From: Solirubrobacterales bacterium
GTDB lineage: Bacteria > Actinomycetota > Thermoleophilia > Solirubrobacterales > Solirubrobacteraceae
Reading direction: 5' to 3'
Assembly: GCA_013813955.1 (NCBI GenBank)
Contig: JACCQW010000286.1
Coordinates: forward strand, 1 to 16,259
DNA length: 16,259 nt
A program made the translations under genes and the position numbers. The notes below the pieces were generated by a model, which saw only the letters and a list, made by a program, of their open reading frames with translations, was not told the DNA's origin and did not search any database. This document shows, one piece after another, positions 2,063-7,999 of the stretch. Position 1 is the stretch's first letter; each line of letters opens with the position of its first letter.

Positions 2063-2132
2063 CCGTGATCCCCCCACTGGTCGTCCGTCCGGTCTGCACT
2101 GGTATCATGCCGCACCGGTCCGGTCCAGTCAC
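2046..2132 (-). CDS. Possible 28-codon upstream ORF overlapping the ANTAR gene start
   Basis: A GTG codon at 2132 is preceded by a perfect AAGGAGG (2147-2141 on this strand) at a spacing of 8 bases, which is rare in this GC-rich window. The frame runs 28 codons (starting VTGPDRCGMIP) to a TGA at 2046-2048, about 14 bases past the ANTAR GTG and in a different frame. It could be a leader peptide that couples translation to the ANTAR gene. It has no recognisable domain and codon use is not decisive. The strong ribosome binding site is the main evidence. Confidence 0.3.
   Translation of the reverse strand: MTGPDRCGMIPVQTGRTTSGGITGGNGC
2079..2108 (+). promoter_or_regulatory. Candidate promoter of the sigma-factor gene
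   Basis: TGGTATCAT (2100-2108) reads as an extended -10 element. The same bases also read as TGGTAT, one mismatch from the SigF/SigB -10 GGGTAT, with GGTCG (2079-2083) at a spacing of 16. The sigma gene could therefore be read by the housekeeping enzyme, by its own sigma factor, or by both. Transcription would begin near 2114, giving a leader of about 135 nt before ATG 2251. Confidence 0.4.
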
Positions 2133-2250
2133 CCGCCGTACCTCCTTCGCGCCCCAGACCTCGGCGTCCTCTCGTAAGGGGAAGGTCGTGCGAGTGCATG
2201 CTCCGCCGAGACAGCTCAGGTCCGTCCCCCCGCGTGGCGCGGTGCCGGCG

Positions 2251-3042
2251 ATGAACACCCAGGGGCCCGCTCGCGACCCCGGCGGCACGCACGAGCGCAT
2301 GCGCGAGGACCGCGCGCTGTTCGAGCGCTACCTGCGCGACCGTGAGCCGCACATCCGCGACGCGCTCGTCGAGCGCTTCCTGCCGCTCGCCCGCCAGCTC
2401 GCGCGCCGCTACCAGCGCGGCGAGGAGCCTCTCGACGATCTCGTGCAGGTCGCTTCGCTGGGCCTGATCAAGGCCATCGATCGCTTCGACCTCGAGCGCG
2501 AGGTCGCGTTCTCCTCCTACGCCGTGCCCACGATCCTGGGGGAGATCAAGCGCCACTTCCGCGATCGCACGTGGTCGGTGCGCGTGCCACGCGACCTGCA
2601 GGAGCTCGCGCTGAAGGTCGACGCGGCCGTGACGCGCCTGTCGGTCGACCTGCACCGCCAGCCGTCCGTGCCGGAGATCGTCGCGGTCGTAGGCGCCGGG
2701 GAGGAGGCCGTGCTGGAGGCGCTGCAGGCCGGCGGCGCCTATCGGGCCACCTCGCTGGAGACCCCGCGCGGGGGCGAGGAGGACGCCAACACGCTCGGCG
2801 AGTCGATCGGCGCCGACGAGGAGGGCTTCGACCTCGCGGAGCACCGGGCCACGCTCGGGCGCCTCCTGGCGACGCTTTCCCCGCGCGAGCGCGAGGTGCT
2901 GCGCCTGCGCTTCGAGGAGGACATGACCCAGGCCGAGATCGGCGCTGTCATCGGCGTCAGCCAGATGCAGGTCTCGCGGCTCATCCGCCAGGCGATCACC
3001 CGCCTGCGCGCTGCCGCGACCTCCGGCGACCTCGCCGCCTGA
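2251..3042 (+). CDS. SigB/SigF-family RNA polymerase sigma factor (general stress type)
   Basis: A 263-residue group 3 sigma factor. Region 2 (about residues 20-110) includes LVERFLPLARQLARRY, then DDLVQVASLGLIKAIDRFD, then FSSYAVPTILGEIKRHFRD. Region 3 follows at about 115-170. Region 4 (about 205-255) contains LSPREREVLRLRF and the helix-turn-helix TQAEIGAVIGVSQMQVSRL. This architecture matches the SigB/SigF/SigG family, which is typically held inactive by an RsbW-type anti-sigma kinase; such a protein is encoded at 7556-7999. ATG 2251 is chosen because codons upstream have poor GC3 and include AGA/AGG. A GTG at 2194 has a better Shine-Dalgarno sequence (GGGGAAGG, about 8 bases away) and would add 19 residues. 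The stop overlaps the next start in TGATG, implying translational coupling to the HAD gene. Substrate promoters are inferred to be GGTTT-N15-GGGTA. Confidence 0.93.
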   Translation: MNTQGPARDPGGTHERMREDRALFERYLRDREPHIRDALVERFLPLARQLARRYQRGEEPLDDLVQVASLGLIKAIDRFDLEREVAFSSYAVPTILGEIKRHFRDRTWSVRVPRDLQELALKVDAAVTRLSVDLHRQPSVPEIVAVVGAGEEAVLEALQAGGAYRATSLETPRGGEEDANTLGESIGADEEGFDLAEHRATLGRLLATLSPREREVLRLRFEEDMTQAEIGAVIGVSQMQVSRLIRQAITRLRAAATSGDLAA

Positions 3043-4694: not shown

Positions 4695-4767
4695 TCGGGT
4701 GCCATGGCTGGCGCACCGGAGGGCGTGCAACGTCCCGTGCGTGCGTCCACCGGGGATGAGCACGGGG

Positions 4768-4775
4768 CATACTCT
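4768..4775 (+). promoter_or_regulatory. Candidate -10 element giving a leaderless ku mRNA
   Basis: CATACT (4768-4773) or TACTCT (4770-4775) lies only 4-6 bases before the ku ATG at 4780, and there is no Shine-Dalgarno sequence. This placement is typical of leaderless transcripts, which are common in Actinobacteria. No convincing -35 is seen. Confidence 0.4.
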
Positions 4776-4779
4776 GCCC

Positions 4780-5715
4780 ATGCCCAGGTCGATCTGGACC
4801 GGCGCCATCAGCTTCGGGCTGGTGACCGTCCCCGTGAAGCTCTATTCCGCCGTCCAGCGCAAGACGGTGCGCTTCCATCAGCTCAACTCCAAGACCGGTG
4901 TGCGCATCCAGCAGAAGCGCGTGGATCCGTCGACCGGCGACGAGGTCGCCTACGAGGACATCGTCAAGGGCTACGAGCTCTCGCCCGACCGCTACGTGGT
5001 CGTCGAGCCTGGTGAGCTCGAGGCGCTGGACCCCAAGAAGACCCGCACCATCGACATCGAGGACTTCGTCGCCCTGGACGAGATCGACCCGATCTTCTAC
5101 GACCACCCCTACTACCTCGCTCCCGGACCGGGCGGCGCCAAGCCCTACCGGCTGCTGCTGGAGGCGATGCGCGACACCGAGCGCGTCGCGATCGCCAAAG
5201 TGGTCATCCGCTCCAAGGAGCAGCTCGTCGCGATCCGTCCGATGGGCGACGTGCTCGCGATGGCGACGATGGTCTTCGCCGACGAGGTCGTCGACGCGAC
5301 CAGGCTCGATGAGGTGCCCGACCCCGACGAGATCAAGACCACCAAGCGCGAGATCGACATCGCCAAGCAGCTCGTCGACTCGCTGGCCGCCGCCTTCGAG
5401 CCCGAGAAGTACAGCGACACCTACCGCGATGAGGTGCTCGACCTCGTCGAGCGCAAGGCACAGGGCGAGGAGATCGCCGTGCAGCCCACCGTCGAGGAGG
5501 ACTCCACGCCGGCGCCCGACCTGATGTCGGCGCTGAAGGCCAGCCTCGACGCGGTCCGCGCGCGCGACGGCGGCGGCGACGCGGACGGGGGCGCGCCCGC
5601 CAAGAAGCCCGCGGCGCGCAAGAAGGCCCCGGCCAAGAAGACCCCGGCCAAGAAGCCGGCCGCGAAGAAGGCCCCGGCCCGCAAGAAGGCCGCGACCTCC
5701 AAGTCGAAGTCCTGA
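4780..5715 (+). CDS. ku: Ku protein, non-homologous end-joining DNA end-binding factor
   Basis: A 311-residue bacterial Ku. The core (about residues 1-260) begins with the typical MPRSIWTGAISFGLVTVPVKLY and continues with VRFHQLNSKTG, GYELSPDRYVVVEPGELEAL, FYDHPYYLAP and VAIAKVVIRSKEQLVAIRP, all characteristic of the ring-forming homodimer that threads onto double-strand ends and recruits LigD. The last 40 residues are a Lys/Ala/Pro tail of PAKK/ARKK repeats, like the basic C-terminal extensions of mycobacterial and streptomycete Ku that bind DNA. The ATG at 4780 fits the family's N-terminus; upstream in-frame codons are not conserved. No ligD is present in the window. The next gene, a topoisomerase IB, overlaps the stop codon. 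Expression may come from a leaderless transcript. Confidence 0.96.
   Translation: MPRSIWTGAISFGLVTVPVKLYSAVQRKTVRFHQLNSKTGVRIQQKRVDPSTGDEVAYEDIVKGYELSPDRYVVVEPGELEALDPKKTRTIDIEDFVALDEIDPIFYDHPYYLAPGPGGAKPYRLLLEAMRDTERVAIAKVVIRSKEQLVAIRPMGDVLAMATMVFADEVVDATRLDEVPDPDEIKTTKREIDIAKQLVDSLAAAFEPEKYSDTYRDEVLDLVERKAQGEEIAVQPTVEEDSTPAPDLMSALKASLDAVRARDGGGDADGGAPAKKPAARKKAPAKKTPAKKPAAKKAPARKKAATSKSKS
5596..5712 (+). repeat. Lys/Ala/Pro codon repeats encoding the Ku tail
   Basis: About 115 bp of imperfect repeats built from AAGAAG and CCGGCC-like units. They encode PAKKP, PAKKT, PAKKP, AAKKA and ARKKA blocks. Repeat length is likely to vary between strains. The tail is expected to be disordered and DNA-binding. 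Confidence 0.7.
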
Positions 5716-6725
5716 GCACGCCCCGCCTGCGCCGAGCGGACTGCACCGGGCCCGGGCTGGCCCGGCGCCGCCACGGGCGCGGCTTCACCTACCTCGACGA
5801 CGGAGGCGAGCGCCTGCAGGACGCCGAGGTCCTCACGCGCATCGCGGAGCTGGTCATACCGCCGGCCTGGAAGGACGTCTGGATCTGTCCGTACCCGGGC
5901 GGCCACATCCAGGCCACCGGCGTCGATGAGCGCGGCCGCAAGCAGTACCTGTACCACCCGCGCTGGCGCGAGCGCCGCGACCAGGCCAAGTTCGACGACA
6001 TGCTCACCTTCGCCCGGGCGCTGCCGGCGCTGCGCGAGCAGGTCGCGGCCGACCTCGCCCGCGACGACCTGGGTCGTGAGCACGTCCTCGCCTGCGCCGC
6101 GCGCCTGCTGGACGTCGGGTTCTTCCGCATCGGCTCCGAGGACTACGCGGCGCAGAACGAGAGCTACGGCCTGGCCACGATGCGCAAGGACCACGTGACG
6201 CTGCACGGCGAGACGATCGTCTTCGACTACCCGGCCAAGTCGGGCAAGCAGCGCCGCCAGGCCGTCGTCGACGCCGAGGTGGCGCAGACGGTGCTCGCGC
6301 TCAAGCGCCGCCGCGGCGGTGGGCCCGAGCTGCTGGCCTACAAGGAGGGCCGACGCTGGCAGGACGTGCGCTCACCGGACATCAACGCCTACCTGAAGGA
6401 CACCACCGGCCTCGAGGTCTCGGCCAAGGACTTCCGCACCTGGGCGGCGACCGTGCTCGCCGCGGTGTCGCTCGCGGTCATCGCGCCGGAGGTCAGGAGC
6501 AAGGGCGCCCGCAAGCGGGCGATCACGTGGGCCATCAAGCAGGTCGCGGCGAACCTCGGCAACACCCCGGCGGTGGCGCGCTCGTCCTACATCGACCCGC
6601 GCGTGTTCGACCGCTTCCGCGACGGCAGGACTATTCGCGACACCCTCGGGGAGATCGCCGCCGATCCGGAGGCGACCGCGATCCAGGGACCCGCCGAGAA
6701 GGCGGTGCTCGACCTCCTCGACTGA
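5712..6725 (+). CDS. DNA topoisomerase IB (poxvirus-type, bacterial), probable CTG start
   Basis: A 337-residue type IB topoisomerase, which relaxes supercoils through a 3'-phosphotyrosine intermediate. The N-terminal domain (about residues 4-95) contains RLRRADCTGPGLARRR, GRGFTYLD, IPPAWKDVWICPYPGGHIQA and QYLYHPRWRERRD. The catalytic domain follows with R139 (FFRIG), K176 (YPAKSGK), R242 (KDFRTW), N284 (LGNTP, where poxviruses have His) and nucleophile Y293 (SSYIDP), in order and spacing like the Deinococcus enzyme. There is no in-frame ATG, GTG or TTG upstream of codon 97 (ATG 6000), and starting there would delete the conserved N-terminal domain. The only fitting start is CTG 5712, which overlaps the ku TGA as CTGA, like the usual ATGA coupling. 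The coding frame is -1 to ku. It lies between ku and a convergent STAS gene. Family assignment is very sure; the start is inferred. Confidence 0.9.
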   Translation: MSTPRLRRADCTGPGLARRRHGRGFTYLDDGGERLQDAEVLTRIAELVIPPAWKDVWICPYPGGHIQATGVDERGRKQYLYHPRWRERRDQAKFDDMLTFARALPALREQVAADLARDDLGREHVLACAARLLDVGFFRIGSEDYAAQNESYGLATMRKDHVTLHGETIVFDYPAKSGKQRRQAVVDAEVAQTVLALKRRRGGGPELLAYKEGRRWQDVRSPDINAYLKDTTGLEVSAKDFRTWAATVLAAVSLAVIAPEVRSKGARKRAITWAIKQVAANLGNTPAVARSSYIDPRVFDRFRDGRTIRDTLGEIAADPEATAIQGPAEKAVLDLLD

Positions 6726-6744
6726 CGAGGCGATCGCCCGTCAG
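6722..6744. terminator. Shared hairpin between convergent topoisomerase and STAS genes
   Basis: CTGACG (6722-6727) pairs with CGTCAG (6739-6744) around the self-complementary GGCGATCGCC (6729-6738). Both stop codons, TGA of the topoisomerase and TGA of the STAS gene on the other strand, lie in the arms. No U-tract follows on either strand, so termination would be of the GC-hairpin kind or Rho-assisted. Confidence 0.45.
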
Positions 6745-7103
6745 TGGGTCGCGCCGGCGACGGCGCTGACCGCCTCCTCGCGCGTGGCGAGGATGGTGAA
6801 GATCTGGTCCAGCCCGGTGATCTCGAAGGTCTTGGCGATGTTCTCGTCGACGTTGACGATGGCCAGCGCCCCGTCGTGGAAGCGCAGGCGCTTGACCGCG
6901 CCGATCAGCACGCCGAGCGCCGTGGAGTCCAGGAACGTCGTCTCGGTCAGGTCGACGACGATCCGGTTGCGCCCGCCCTCGATCGACTCGGCGAGGACCT
7001 GCTTGAGCTCCGGGGCGGTGAAGAGGTCGATCTCGCCGCGGACCGCGACGACGTGGCGCTCGGCGTCGATCGGCTCCTCGGTGACGGCGAACTCAGGCGG
7101 CAT
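6741..7103 (-). CDS. STAS-domain anti-sigma factor antagonist (RsbV-like)
   Basis: A 120-residue single STAS domain. It shows the strand RHVVAVRGEIDLFTAPEL, then RIVVDLTETTFLDSTALGVLIGA with phosphorylatable S60 in the DSTALG motif, and a final amphipathic helix. In partner switching, the unphosphorylated antagonist binds an RsbW-type kinase and frees the sigma factor; phosphorylation at this Ser turns it off. ATG 7103 is preferred, with GGAG four bases upstream; a TTG at 7121 is an alternative. It is the last gene of the leftward operon with the degenerate GHKL-like gene and the RsbW-like gene, separated from the former by 51 bp holding a strong hairpin. The partner anti-sigma factor is therefore probably 7556-7999. 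Confidence 0.92.
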   Translation of the reverse strand: MPPEFAVTEEPIDAERHVVAVRGEIDLFTAPELKQVLAESIEGGRNRIVVDLTETTFLDSTALGVLIGAVKRLRFHDGALAIVNVDENIAKTFEITGLDQIFTILATREEAVSAVAGATH

Positions 7104-7122
7104 CCGGCTCCATTGTGTCAAT

Positions 7123-7154: not shown

Positions 7155-7559
7155 TCATCCGGGGAAGCCCAGCCGGATCCGCAGGTGCTCGTCCTCGCCG
7201 TCATCCGCGATCTCCGGTGTCACCTCGTCGGCCACGCGCTCGAGCACGTTGCCGACGCCGGGCAGCTCGGCCGCCGCCACGAGGTCGCTCGCGCCGCGCG
7301 GGCGCAGCGGGCCCACGTGCAGCTCCAGCGAGCCCAGCTCGGCCGTCACGCGCACGGCGATGCGACCGTCGATCGCCGACGCGGTGGCGTTGGCGGCGAC
7401 GGCGTCGGCGATCAGCAGCGCGTCGTCGAGCCGGTCGATCGGGCATCGGGCGCGGGCCGCGAGCATGCCGACCACCCGTGTGAGCACCGGTGCCATGAGC
7501 GGGCCGACGCACACGGTCAGCAGCGCCTCGTTGCGCTGGAGCGCGACGTCCTCGCTCAC
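7155..7559 (-). CDS. Small protein of the rsb operon, probable degenerate GHKL/HATPase-like domain
   Basis: A 134-residue cytoplasmic protein without a signal or membrane segment. The middle (DDALLIADAVAANATAS, about residues 45-61) aligns by eye with the N-box helix of RsbW-type kinases (KLAVTEACTNVVIHA in the neighbouring gene). It is followed by two beta-strand-like segments (RIAVRVTAELGSLELHVGP). A stretch LPGVGNVLERVADEV sits where a G2 box would be, but the DxGxG and GLGLG ATP-binding boxes are missing. I infer a GHKL-fold paralogue that has lost ATP binding. The GTG start at 7559 overlaps the stop of the RsbW-like gene as GTGA, so translation is coupled. It may modulate the anti-sigma kinase or sense a signal. 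Homology is not certain. Confidence 0.6.
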   Translation of the reverse strand: MSEDVALQRNEALLTVCVGPLMAPVLTRVVGMLAARARCPIDRLDDALLIADAVAANATASAIDGRIAVRVTAELGSLELHVGPLRPRGASDLVAAAELPGVGNVLERVADEVTPEIADDGEDEHLRIRLGFPG

Positions 7560-7999
7560 GCCCCCGCCTCGTCGCCCTCGTTCAGCCGGAAGGTCATGCG
7601 AACCTCCGTGTGGTCCCCGTCGTCCTTGCCCAGTTCGAGCGACTCGGCGAGCGTGGCGATGAGCGGCAGCCCGAGCCCCAGCCCCGGGGAGTCGGGCCGG
7701 GGGACGATCCCGCGGCCCCGGTCGCGGACCACGATGGTCAGCCTGTGGTCGTCCACGCTGGCATCGACCTCGAGCGGTCCCTCGCCGTCACCGTCGTCGT
7801 AGGCGTGGATGACGACGTTCGTGCACGCCTCCGTAACCGCGAGCTTGATGTCCGACATCGTGCCTTCGTCGACATCGAACGCCTCACCCAGACCGCCGAA
7901 CGCGTGGCGCACGACCGCCACGTTCTCCGCGCGGGCGGGCAGTTTGAGCTCGAGGTCGGGCGTGGGGGTCACCTCTTCGGGGGTCAGACGCAGACACAT
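7556..7999 (-). CDS. RsbW-like anti-sigma factor serine kinase (GHKL ATPase)
   Basis: A 147-residue protein with a complete HATPase_c domain of the RsbW/SpoIIAB class. The N-box is KLAVTEACTNVVIHAY, with E57 as catalytic base and N61 for Mg2+. The G1 box is VRDRGRGI (D93). The G2 box is PGLGLGLPLIATLA (about 105-118). T131 in HTEVRM corresponds to the final ATP-contact strand. These proteins bind a SigB/SigF factor and phosphorylate the STAS antagonist on Ser. Both partners exist here: the sigma factor at 2251-3042 and the STAS protein at 6741-7103. The ATG at 7999 has only a weak ribosome site. The gene heads the operon and is divergent from gltB, with a candidate SigF/SigB promoter at 8220-8245 and a weaker -10 at 8060-8065. 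Confidence 0.93.
   Translation of the reverse strand: MCLRLTPEEVTPTPDLELKLPARAENVAVVRHAFGGLGEAFDVDEGTMSDIKLAVTEACTNVVIHAYDDGDGEGPLEVDASVDDHRLTIVVRDRGRGIVPRPDSPGLGLGLPLIATLAESLELGKDDGDHTEVRMTFRLNEGDEAGA

Follow-up and report, generated by a model that had tools for sequence, protein, structure and literature searches.

A stretch of 16,259 nucleotides from a Solirubrobacterales bacterium (hereafter, the window), which is contig 69 of a draft genome (G000; 483 contigs, 77% complete), carries a gene for the Ku protein (ku) followed on the same strand by a gene for bacterial DNA topoisomerase IB (topIB; Table 1). The ku product is a DNA end-binding protein of end joining with a C-terminal tail rich in Lys, Ala and Pro; the tail (5550-5712, + strand) bears a weak resemblance, scoring below the cut-off, to the histone H1-like protein HC2 (E = 0.00026). 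The TopIB frame, which follows directly on an in-frame TGA at 5430-5432, stays open over 5433-6725, and between that stop and the ATG at 6000 it contains no ATG, GTG or TTG. At the end of ku, a CTG codon in the TopIB frame and the TGA stop of ku have the letters TG in common, so that the two genes would overlap by four nucleotides (CTGA) with topIB in the −1 frame relative to ku. An earlier note, made from the window sequence alone, had drawn attention to the missing canonical start and to this overlap, and also to the lack of a Shine-Dalgarno sequence nearby; all three were borne out on reading the frames, no Shine-Dalgarno core being visible before the CTG in the window. Translation from this CTG yields (L)STPRLRRADCTGPG..., and this sequence can be aligned with the N-terminus of TopIB in relatives, which is conserved and marked by the sequence RLRR. 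As the note had supposed, the conserved N-terminal part is encoded from the junction onward, and a start at ATG 6000 would remove the Top1B_N_bact domain from the protein.

Table 1. Features of the ku-topIB locus, in positions of the window.
Feature	Position	Strand	Details
ku	4780..5715	+	ATG 4780, TGA 5713-5715; 311 residues; Pfam Ku (PF02735), E = 4.5e-52
CTGA junction	5712..5715	+	proposed CUG start of topIB (5712-5714) and UGA stop of ku (5713-5715)
topIB (bacterial DNA topoisomerase IB)	5712..6725	+	337 residues if read from CTG
Top1B_N_bact (N-terminal domain)	5781..5927	+	PF21338; residues 24-72 of the CTG product (P0001); E = 6.8e-24
Topoisom_I (catalytic core)	5961..6584	+	PF01028; residues 84-291 of P0001
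ATG, first canonical start codon of the TopIB frame	6000..6002	+	gene callers begin a 241-residue product here

The gene pair is flanked by a gene for a sigma-70 type factor with regions 2, 3 and 4 (2116-3042, + strand) and by genes for a STAS domain protein (6741-7121, − strand) and an HATPase_c_2 protein (7556-7999, − strand), which together look like a SigB-like set. Between the latter two lies an ORF of 134 residues without a Pfam match (7155-7559, − strand). Upstream of ku, a (T/C)GCAA...TGCG element and, a few bases before the ATG, a TACT-like −10 sequence can be recognized by eye, both in the window (4720-4779) and in many of the related loci L003-L039, which suggests a leaderless ku mRNA with a conserved operator.

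The protein read from the CTG scores above the cut-off for both of its Pfam domains (Top1B_N_bact, 83.8 bits against 27; Topoisom_I, 111.2 bits against 23.7), and its residues 19-310 match the structure PDB 2f4q (E = 1.1e-56), which we take to be the topoisomerase IB of Deinococcus radiodurans. The active site of TopIB presumably consists of Arg, Lys, Arg, Asn or His, and Tyr, and the predicted set is complete, as R138, K175, R241, N283 and Y292 are invariant in a 14-row alignment (A1). Among full-length TopIB proteins that carry an organism name, the closest comes from a Solirubrobacteraceae bacterium (74%), so that the window probably derives from a relative of that group. The window protein has a sequence match and both Pfam domains in common with the 2f4q-type TopIB, an ordinary enzyme, and is unusual only in its start and its tie to ku.

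Where does the coding of TopIB begin? Third-position G+C in the TopIB frame is 0.55 within the overlap with ku (5436-5711), 0.95 between the junction and the canonical ATG (5715-5999) and 0.96 beyond it (6000-6722). This jump at the junction indicates that TopIB coding starts there. Two related genomes with the same kind of junction, G016 and G166 of the genus g11, provide a second measure: dN and dS between them are 0.091 and 0.668 in the part of TopIB before residue 96, as compared with 0.133 and 0.541 in the C-terminal part, and by these values the N-terminal part is under purifying selection in this pair. Taken together with the third-position G+C, the stretch before ATG 6000 thus looks translated and kept.

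The starts of relatives were read from DNA. Searches covered 61 genomes, 38 of them with TopIB, and a family search covered 146 genomes, 84 of them with TopIB; 12 of these 84, with distant, partial or broken matches, were left out. Among the 72 family loci read, L016 falls short of the N-terminus, leaving 71 to be counted, and in 65 of the 71 a canonical start (ATG, GTG or TTG) lies no more than 40 codons from the conserved RLRR. Seven were flagged as having none within that distance, and one of these (L078) was cleared by the presence of GTG. The remaining six are the window (L002), the two g11 loci (L011 in G016 and L037 in G166), L010, L050 and L065. L010 (G012), where the ku frame ends after 102 codons with about 60 residues missing, was set aside; there, a reversed piece of topIB adjoins topIB, which itself lacks a canonical start, and the arrangement is probably a misassembly. 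L050 (G107) and L065 (G108), both of genus g25, have topIB away from ku; the position held by ATG or GTG in relatives is taken there by CTG-CCC-(A/G)CA. In L050 this CTG follows GGGTAG at a distance of 10 nt, and a TTG is found 42 codons upstream of RLRR. TopIB may tolerate weak starts in general. Among 80 distant loci, two (L104 and L142) lack a start near RLRR but have ATG or GTG further upstream.

In 25 family loci, including the window, ku lies within 103 nt upstream of topIB (ku-linked loci); seven others, with ku at least 366 nt upstream (L025, L041-L044, L047 and L010), were not counted as linked. A canonical start is absent from three of the 25, the window, L011 and L037, and each of these has an in-frame CTG over the TGA of ku; the other 22 have ATG, GTG or TTG further down. 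The earlier note had proposed looking for ATGA or GTGA at this place in relatives. Neither occurs in phase at any of the 25 ku-linked junctions; what L011 and L037 have instead is CTGA, which supports the note's idea of a CTG start coupled to ku, and the CTG of CTGA is the sole NTG codon common in position to all three loci. In L037, moreover, no other NTG codon of any kind stands in frame between the upstream stop (codon −26) and the end of codon 44. Hence CUG is conserved in two genera where the canonical start is absent. The junctions of G016 and G166 are identical letter for letter over CTGACCCGCGCGATC, while about one residue in five or six differs between their TopIB proteins; in both, AAGG, noted by eye, precedes the CTG. 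From the stop of ku to the RLRR codon there are 11, 14 and 14 nt in the CTGA loci vs 18-103 nt in the remaining 22. The three genomes with CTGA are draft assemblies, of 483, about 80 and about 250 contigs. In-phase CTGA is not confined to these three loci: two of the 22 ku-linked loci with ordinary starts also have it, L004 at 98 nt ahead of RLRR, with an in-frame stop behind it, and L038 at 65 nt, where it is not required, the frame staying open and a GTG following. In L038 (G062) the order is CTGA at the ku stop, GGGTAT and then the ordinary GTG, and this locus may be a picture of the state before loss of the intergenic stretch.

CTGA by itself is cheap by chance in such a genome. The 1.47 Mb examined in G016 contain 1256 gene ends, of which 827 are TGA, with C in front of the stop in 468 of the 827; from these gene ends, the expected share of junctions with CTGA in the right phase is computed to be about 0.12. 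What goes beyond chance is that the junction fits the N-terminus of the protein, that a canonical start is absent and that a second lineage repeats the arrangement.

Database proteins bear on how far this junction may extend. The earlier note had predicted that automatic annotation would shorten the protein by 96 residues, and P0122 (241 aa), known as a protein only, turned out to be just such a product: it starts at the same Met and agrees with the truncated window product in 239 of 241 residues. With the truncated TopIB of G016 as query, the best 15 of 120 listed matches (79-100% identity) are all truncated, with lengths of 242-315 aa, and among the remaining 105 listed matches 11 are shorter than 325 residues. 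A truncated prediction was rejected as sole proof of a missing start, as P0158, which matches L003 with its GTG, is also truncated. DNA was read at the CTGA junction for the window, L011 and L037, the other clade members being truncated predictions, and the junction without a canonical start probably spans the whole clade.

TopIB trees built without the N-terminal part place these proteins in two positions. In one, the window protein and P0122 join P0002 (support 95/82); in the other, the g11 clade joins P0153, P0155 and P0159 (100/99). All four of these neighbors are predicted with ordinary starts. Forcing the ten rows without a canonical start, seven of them labeled from truncated predictions, into one clade was rejected (p-AU 0.00025). 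Two changes on the tree are needed when only the DNA-read rows are considered; with all labels, three are needed on the careful tree and two on the quick tree, the third being due to P0152, a truncated prediction that stands beside P0153, P0155 and P0159 in the careful tree. By these trees the CTGA junction would have arisen at least twice, or once with losses, and it has apparently evolved twice. This goes beyond the earlier note, as does the apparent loss from the window of a motif that precedes topIB in relatives.

Of the 22 ku-linked loci with ordinary starts, 20 carry this motif, GGGTA, in the 130 nt ahead of the RLRR codon, in some cases with its last letters supplied by the TAG or TAA of ku; the three CTGA loci have none there. 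The probability of this contrast is 0.004 uncorrected and about 0.02 when the g11 loci are taken as one, a rough correction for kinship. In the family as a whole, GGGTA is found at most 40 nt before the start in 29 of 65 loci (2.3 expected from shuffles), at a distance of 9-18 nt in 26 of the 29, and within 130 nt in 33 of 71 loci (7.3 expected). It is not peculiar to the family, as it was also found in 3 of 8 control loci from other families of the order (0.2 expected) and in 9 of 79 from other actinomycetes (3.6 expected). In Streptomyces, GGGTAT, GGGTAC and GGGTAG are reported to serve SigB-type promoters as −10 elements (PMC8346170). The GGGTA before topIB in relatives matches the −10 element of such stress promoters (GTTTAA-N12-14-GGGWAW) and can be read as a SigB-like promoter −10, the element missing at the three CTGA loci. 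Its position and this likeness suggest that topIB in relatives is probably transcribed separately, as a nearly leaderless mRNA. Deletion of promoter and start would explain both the missing GGGTA and the shortest distances between ku and RLRR.

On these grounds, we consider it likely that topIB at the CTGA loci no longer has a promoter and start of its own and is expressed from CUG by termination-reinitiation coupled to ku. An outline of the proposed process is as follows: in relatives with ordinary starts, topIB is usually preceded by GGGTA with the look of a SigB-type −10, mostly 9-18 nt before ATG, GTG or TTG. In the window lineage and, independently, in genus g11, the stretch with motif and start would have disappeared, a deletion being the simplest cause, and CTGA would have remained as the sole workable junction. 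Translation of ku would bring the ribosome to this junction, and the ribosome that ends ku at UGA would restart one base back, in the −1 frame, on the CUG at 5712. The CUG would most likely be read with initiator Met-tRNA through a first-position mismatch, as may be supposed for natural CUG and other near-cognate starts of bacteria, so that the protein would begin with Met. TopIB output would thereby be tied to the translation of ku, and it would probably be low.

Overlaps of four nucleotides (ATGA, GTGA) are described as the commonest coupled arrangement in prokaryotes (PMC10666635), and PPE2 of Mycobacterium tuberculosis is made mainly by termination-reinitiation at an AUGA (uPPE2-PPE2), with a fusion as a minor product (PMC11260477). 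The ku-topIB pair has in common with these the shared bases of stop and start, the −1 frame and adjacent genes on the same strand, but its start would be CUG instead of a canonical codon, making it a variant of the arrangement; the main text of two overlap surveys does not contain "CTG". Against the proposed reading, CUG as a start is reported to reach 0.86% of AUG and to account for 0.024% of bacterial starts (PMC11497404), and 2 switches from AUG to CUG were counted in 61,358 (PMC5622118). In mycobacteria, CTG was ineffective at the leaderless position (M. smegmatis) and not enriched at the leadered one (PMC4633059), and CUG was employed as a non-start in the work on M. tuberculosis (PMC11260477). 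Natural CUG starts are thus reported as extremely rare and weak, whereas here one clade has apparently fixed such a start, which seems to have arisen twice at the same gene pair. A CUG start at a stop codon is thinkable because inactivation of the ribosome recycling factor leads to random initiation at non-canonical codons downstream of stops (work cited in PMC2268962), and reinitiation at the ku-topIB junction would tolerate CUG.

Could ribosomes instead use another near-cognate codon nearby, reinitiating a few bases past the end of ku? Candidates are ACG 5718 or CTG 5727 in the window and ATC at codon 4 in G016 and G166. A start at ACG 5718 would give MPRLRR, the N-terminus of several relatives (L024 and L028, for example), and the ATC is kept in both g11 species. 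The candidate, however, differs by lineage, whereas CTG(A) is common to both; the counterpart of CTG 5727 in L037 is CTC, and IRLRR is an ordinary inner sequence in relatives with an upstream ATG or GTG (L033 and L038). To our knowledge, neither ACG nor ATC surpasses CUG as a start. We regard such a use as improbable, if less so than the other alternatives.

Slightly less credit is due to a Ku-TopIB fusion as the main source of TopIB, made by a shift into the −1 frame where ku ends or by suppression of its stop. The −1 frame is indeed open for 279 nt ahead of the junction (5433-5711), and the AUGA-coupled M. tuberculosis pair does yield its minor fusion product (PMC11260477). Long open alternative frames arise without meaning at such G+C, however; L008 is open for 1125 nt upstream. 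No slippery heptamer of the form X-XXY-YYZ was seen by eye before the ku stop, in agreement with what the earlier note had remarked, and the ends of ku differ between the lineages: the last codon is TCC in the window and AGC in g11, neither of which would pair again after a −1 shift. The relative phase of ku and topIB, moreover, varies among the 22 ku-linked loci with ordinary starts.

About equally doubtful is a de novo start at the CUG from a short-leader or leaderless mRNA, independent of ku. The topIB mRNAs of relatives may be near-leaderless, given the usual spacing of GGGTA, and L050, which is away from ku, has its CTG just after GGGTAG. For this promoter type, the one that was scanned, the three CTGA loci have nothing within 130 nt upstream, and CTG at the leaderless position failed in M. 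smegmatis (PMC4633059).

It is very unlikely that only the truncated TopIB from ATG 6000 is made, or that topIB is decaying. ATG 6000 is the first canonical start and was chosen by the gene caller behind P0122, but the part before it retains coding composition in the window and evolves under purifying selection in the g11 pair; against decay, columns without variation in the 14-row alignment extend from RLRR almost to the C-terminus, and no stop interrupts the window frame. Least credible is an ordinary start hidden by an assembly or sequencing error, for, fragmentary as the window genome is, the non-identical P0122 shows the same truncation and the G016 and G166 junctions agree over CTGACCCGCGCGATC despite their diverged TopIB proteins. 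A start at 6000 and a sequencing error, which the earlier note had named as what would overturn its reading, were both rejected on the selection acting on the N-terminal part, the near-identical P0122 and the junctions of the two further species, L011 and L037.

CUG-coupled reinitiation, the favored reading, does not appear to reflect a general change in start-codon use. When 1256 gene ends in the 1.47 Mb of G016 were scanned, clean overlaps numbered 37 for ATGA, 37 for GTGA and 2 for CTGA; the controls gave 1 among 429 TAG or TAA ends and 2 for the +1 frame. topIB itself escaped the scan, probably through the Lys-rich tail of ku. CTGA junctions are thus at the level of control noise, which argues against a general shift and makes topIB a special case. 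Neither of the two hits of the scan has a canonical start close by. One is a TetR-type regulator (P0222) that follows an alpha/beta hydrolase-like ORF (L169:15586-16212, − strand), a doubtful case, as an ATG lies close to where its HTH domain begins; the other is a protein of membrane type (P0223) without a Pfam match (L199:9130-9690, + strand). A third candidate, from a looser scan, was dropped, its most probable start being an ATG of its own 17 codons further on.

Lineages with and without CUGA are ready constructs, and they offer a natural test of restart at a codon that bacteria almost never use. Gene callers limited to ATG, GTG and TTG cut a domain from TopIB across a clade, which reveals a blind spot of annotation. 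The conserved neighborhood of topIB and ku raises the question of a role of TopIB in end joining or repair; among the papers searched, none names both topoisomerase IB and LigD. The interest of the CUGA junction lies in the fact that CUG is nearly dead as a start in the cited reporter measurements (PMC11497404, PMC4633059): a natural, apparently twice-evolved junction of this kind suggests that start-codon strictness may be relaxed during reinitiation. As a tentative extension, the post-termination ribosome may be far less codon-strict, so that CUG becomes workable at a stop overlap; topIB would then have twice dropped a stress-type promoter and start to become a CUG-coupled passenger of ku, with a small dose of TopIB tied to the end-joining protein.
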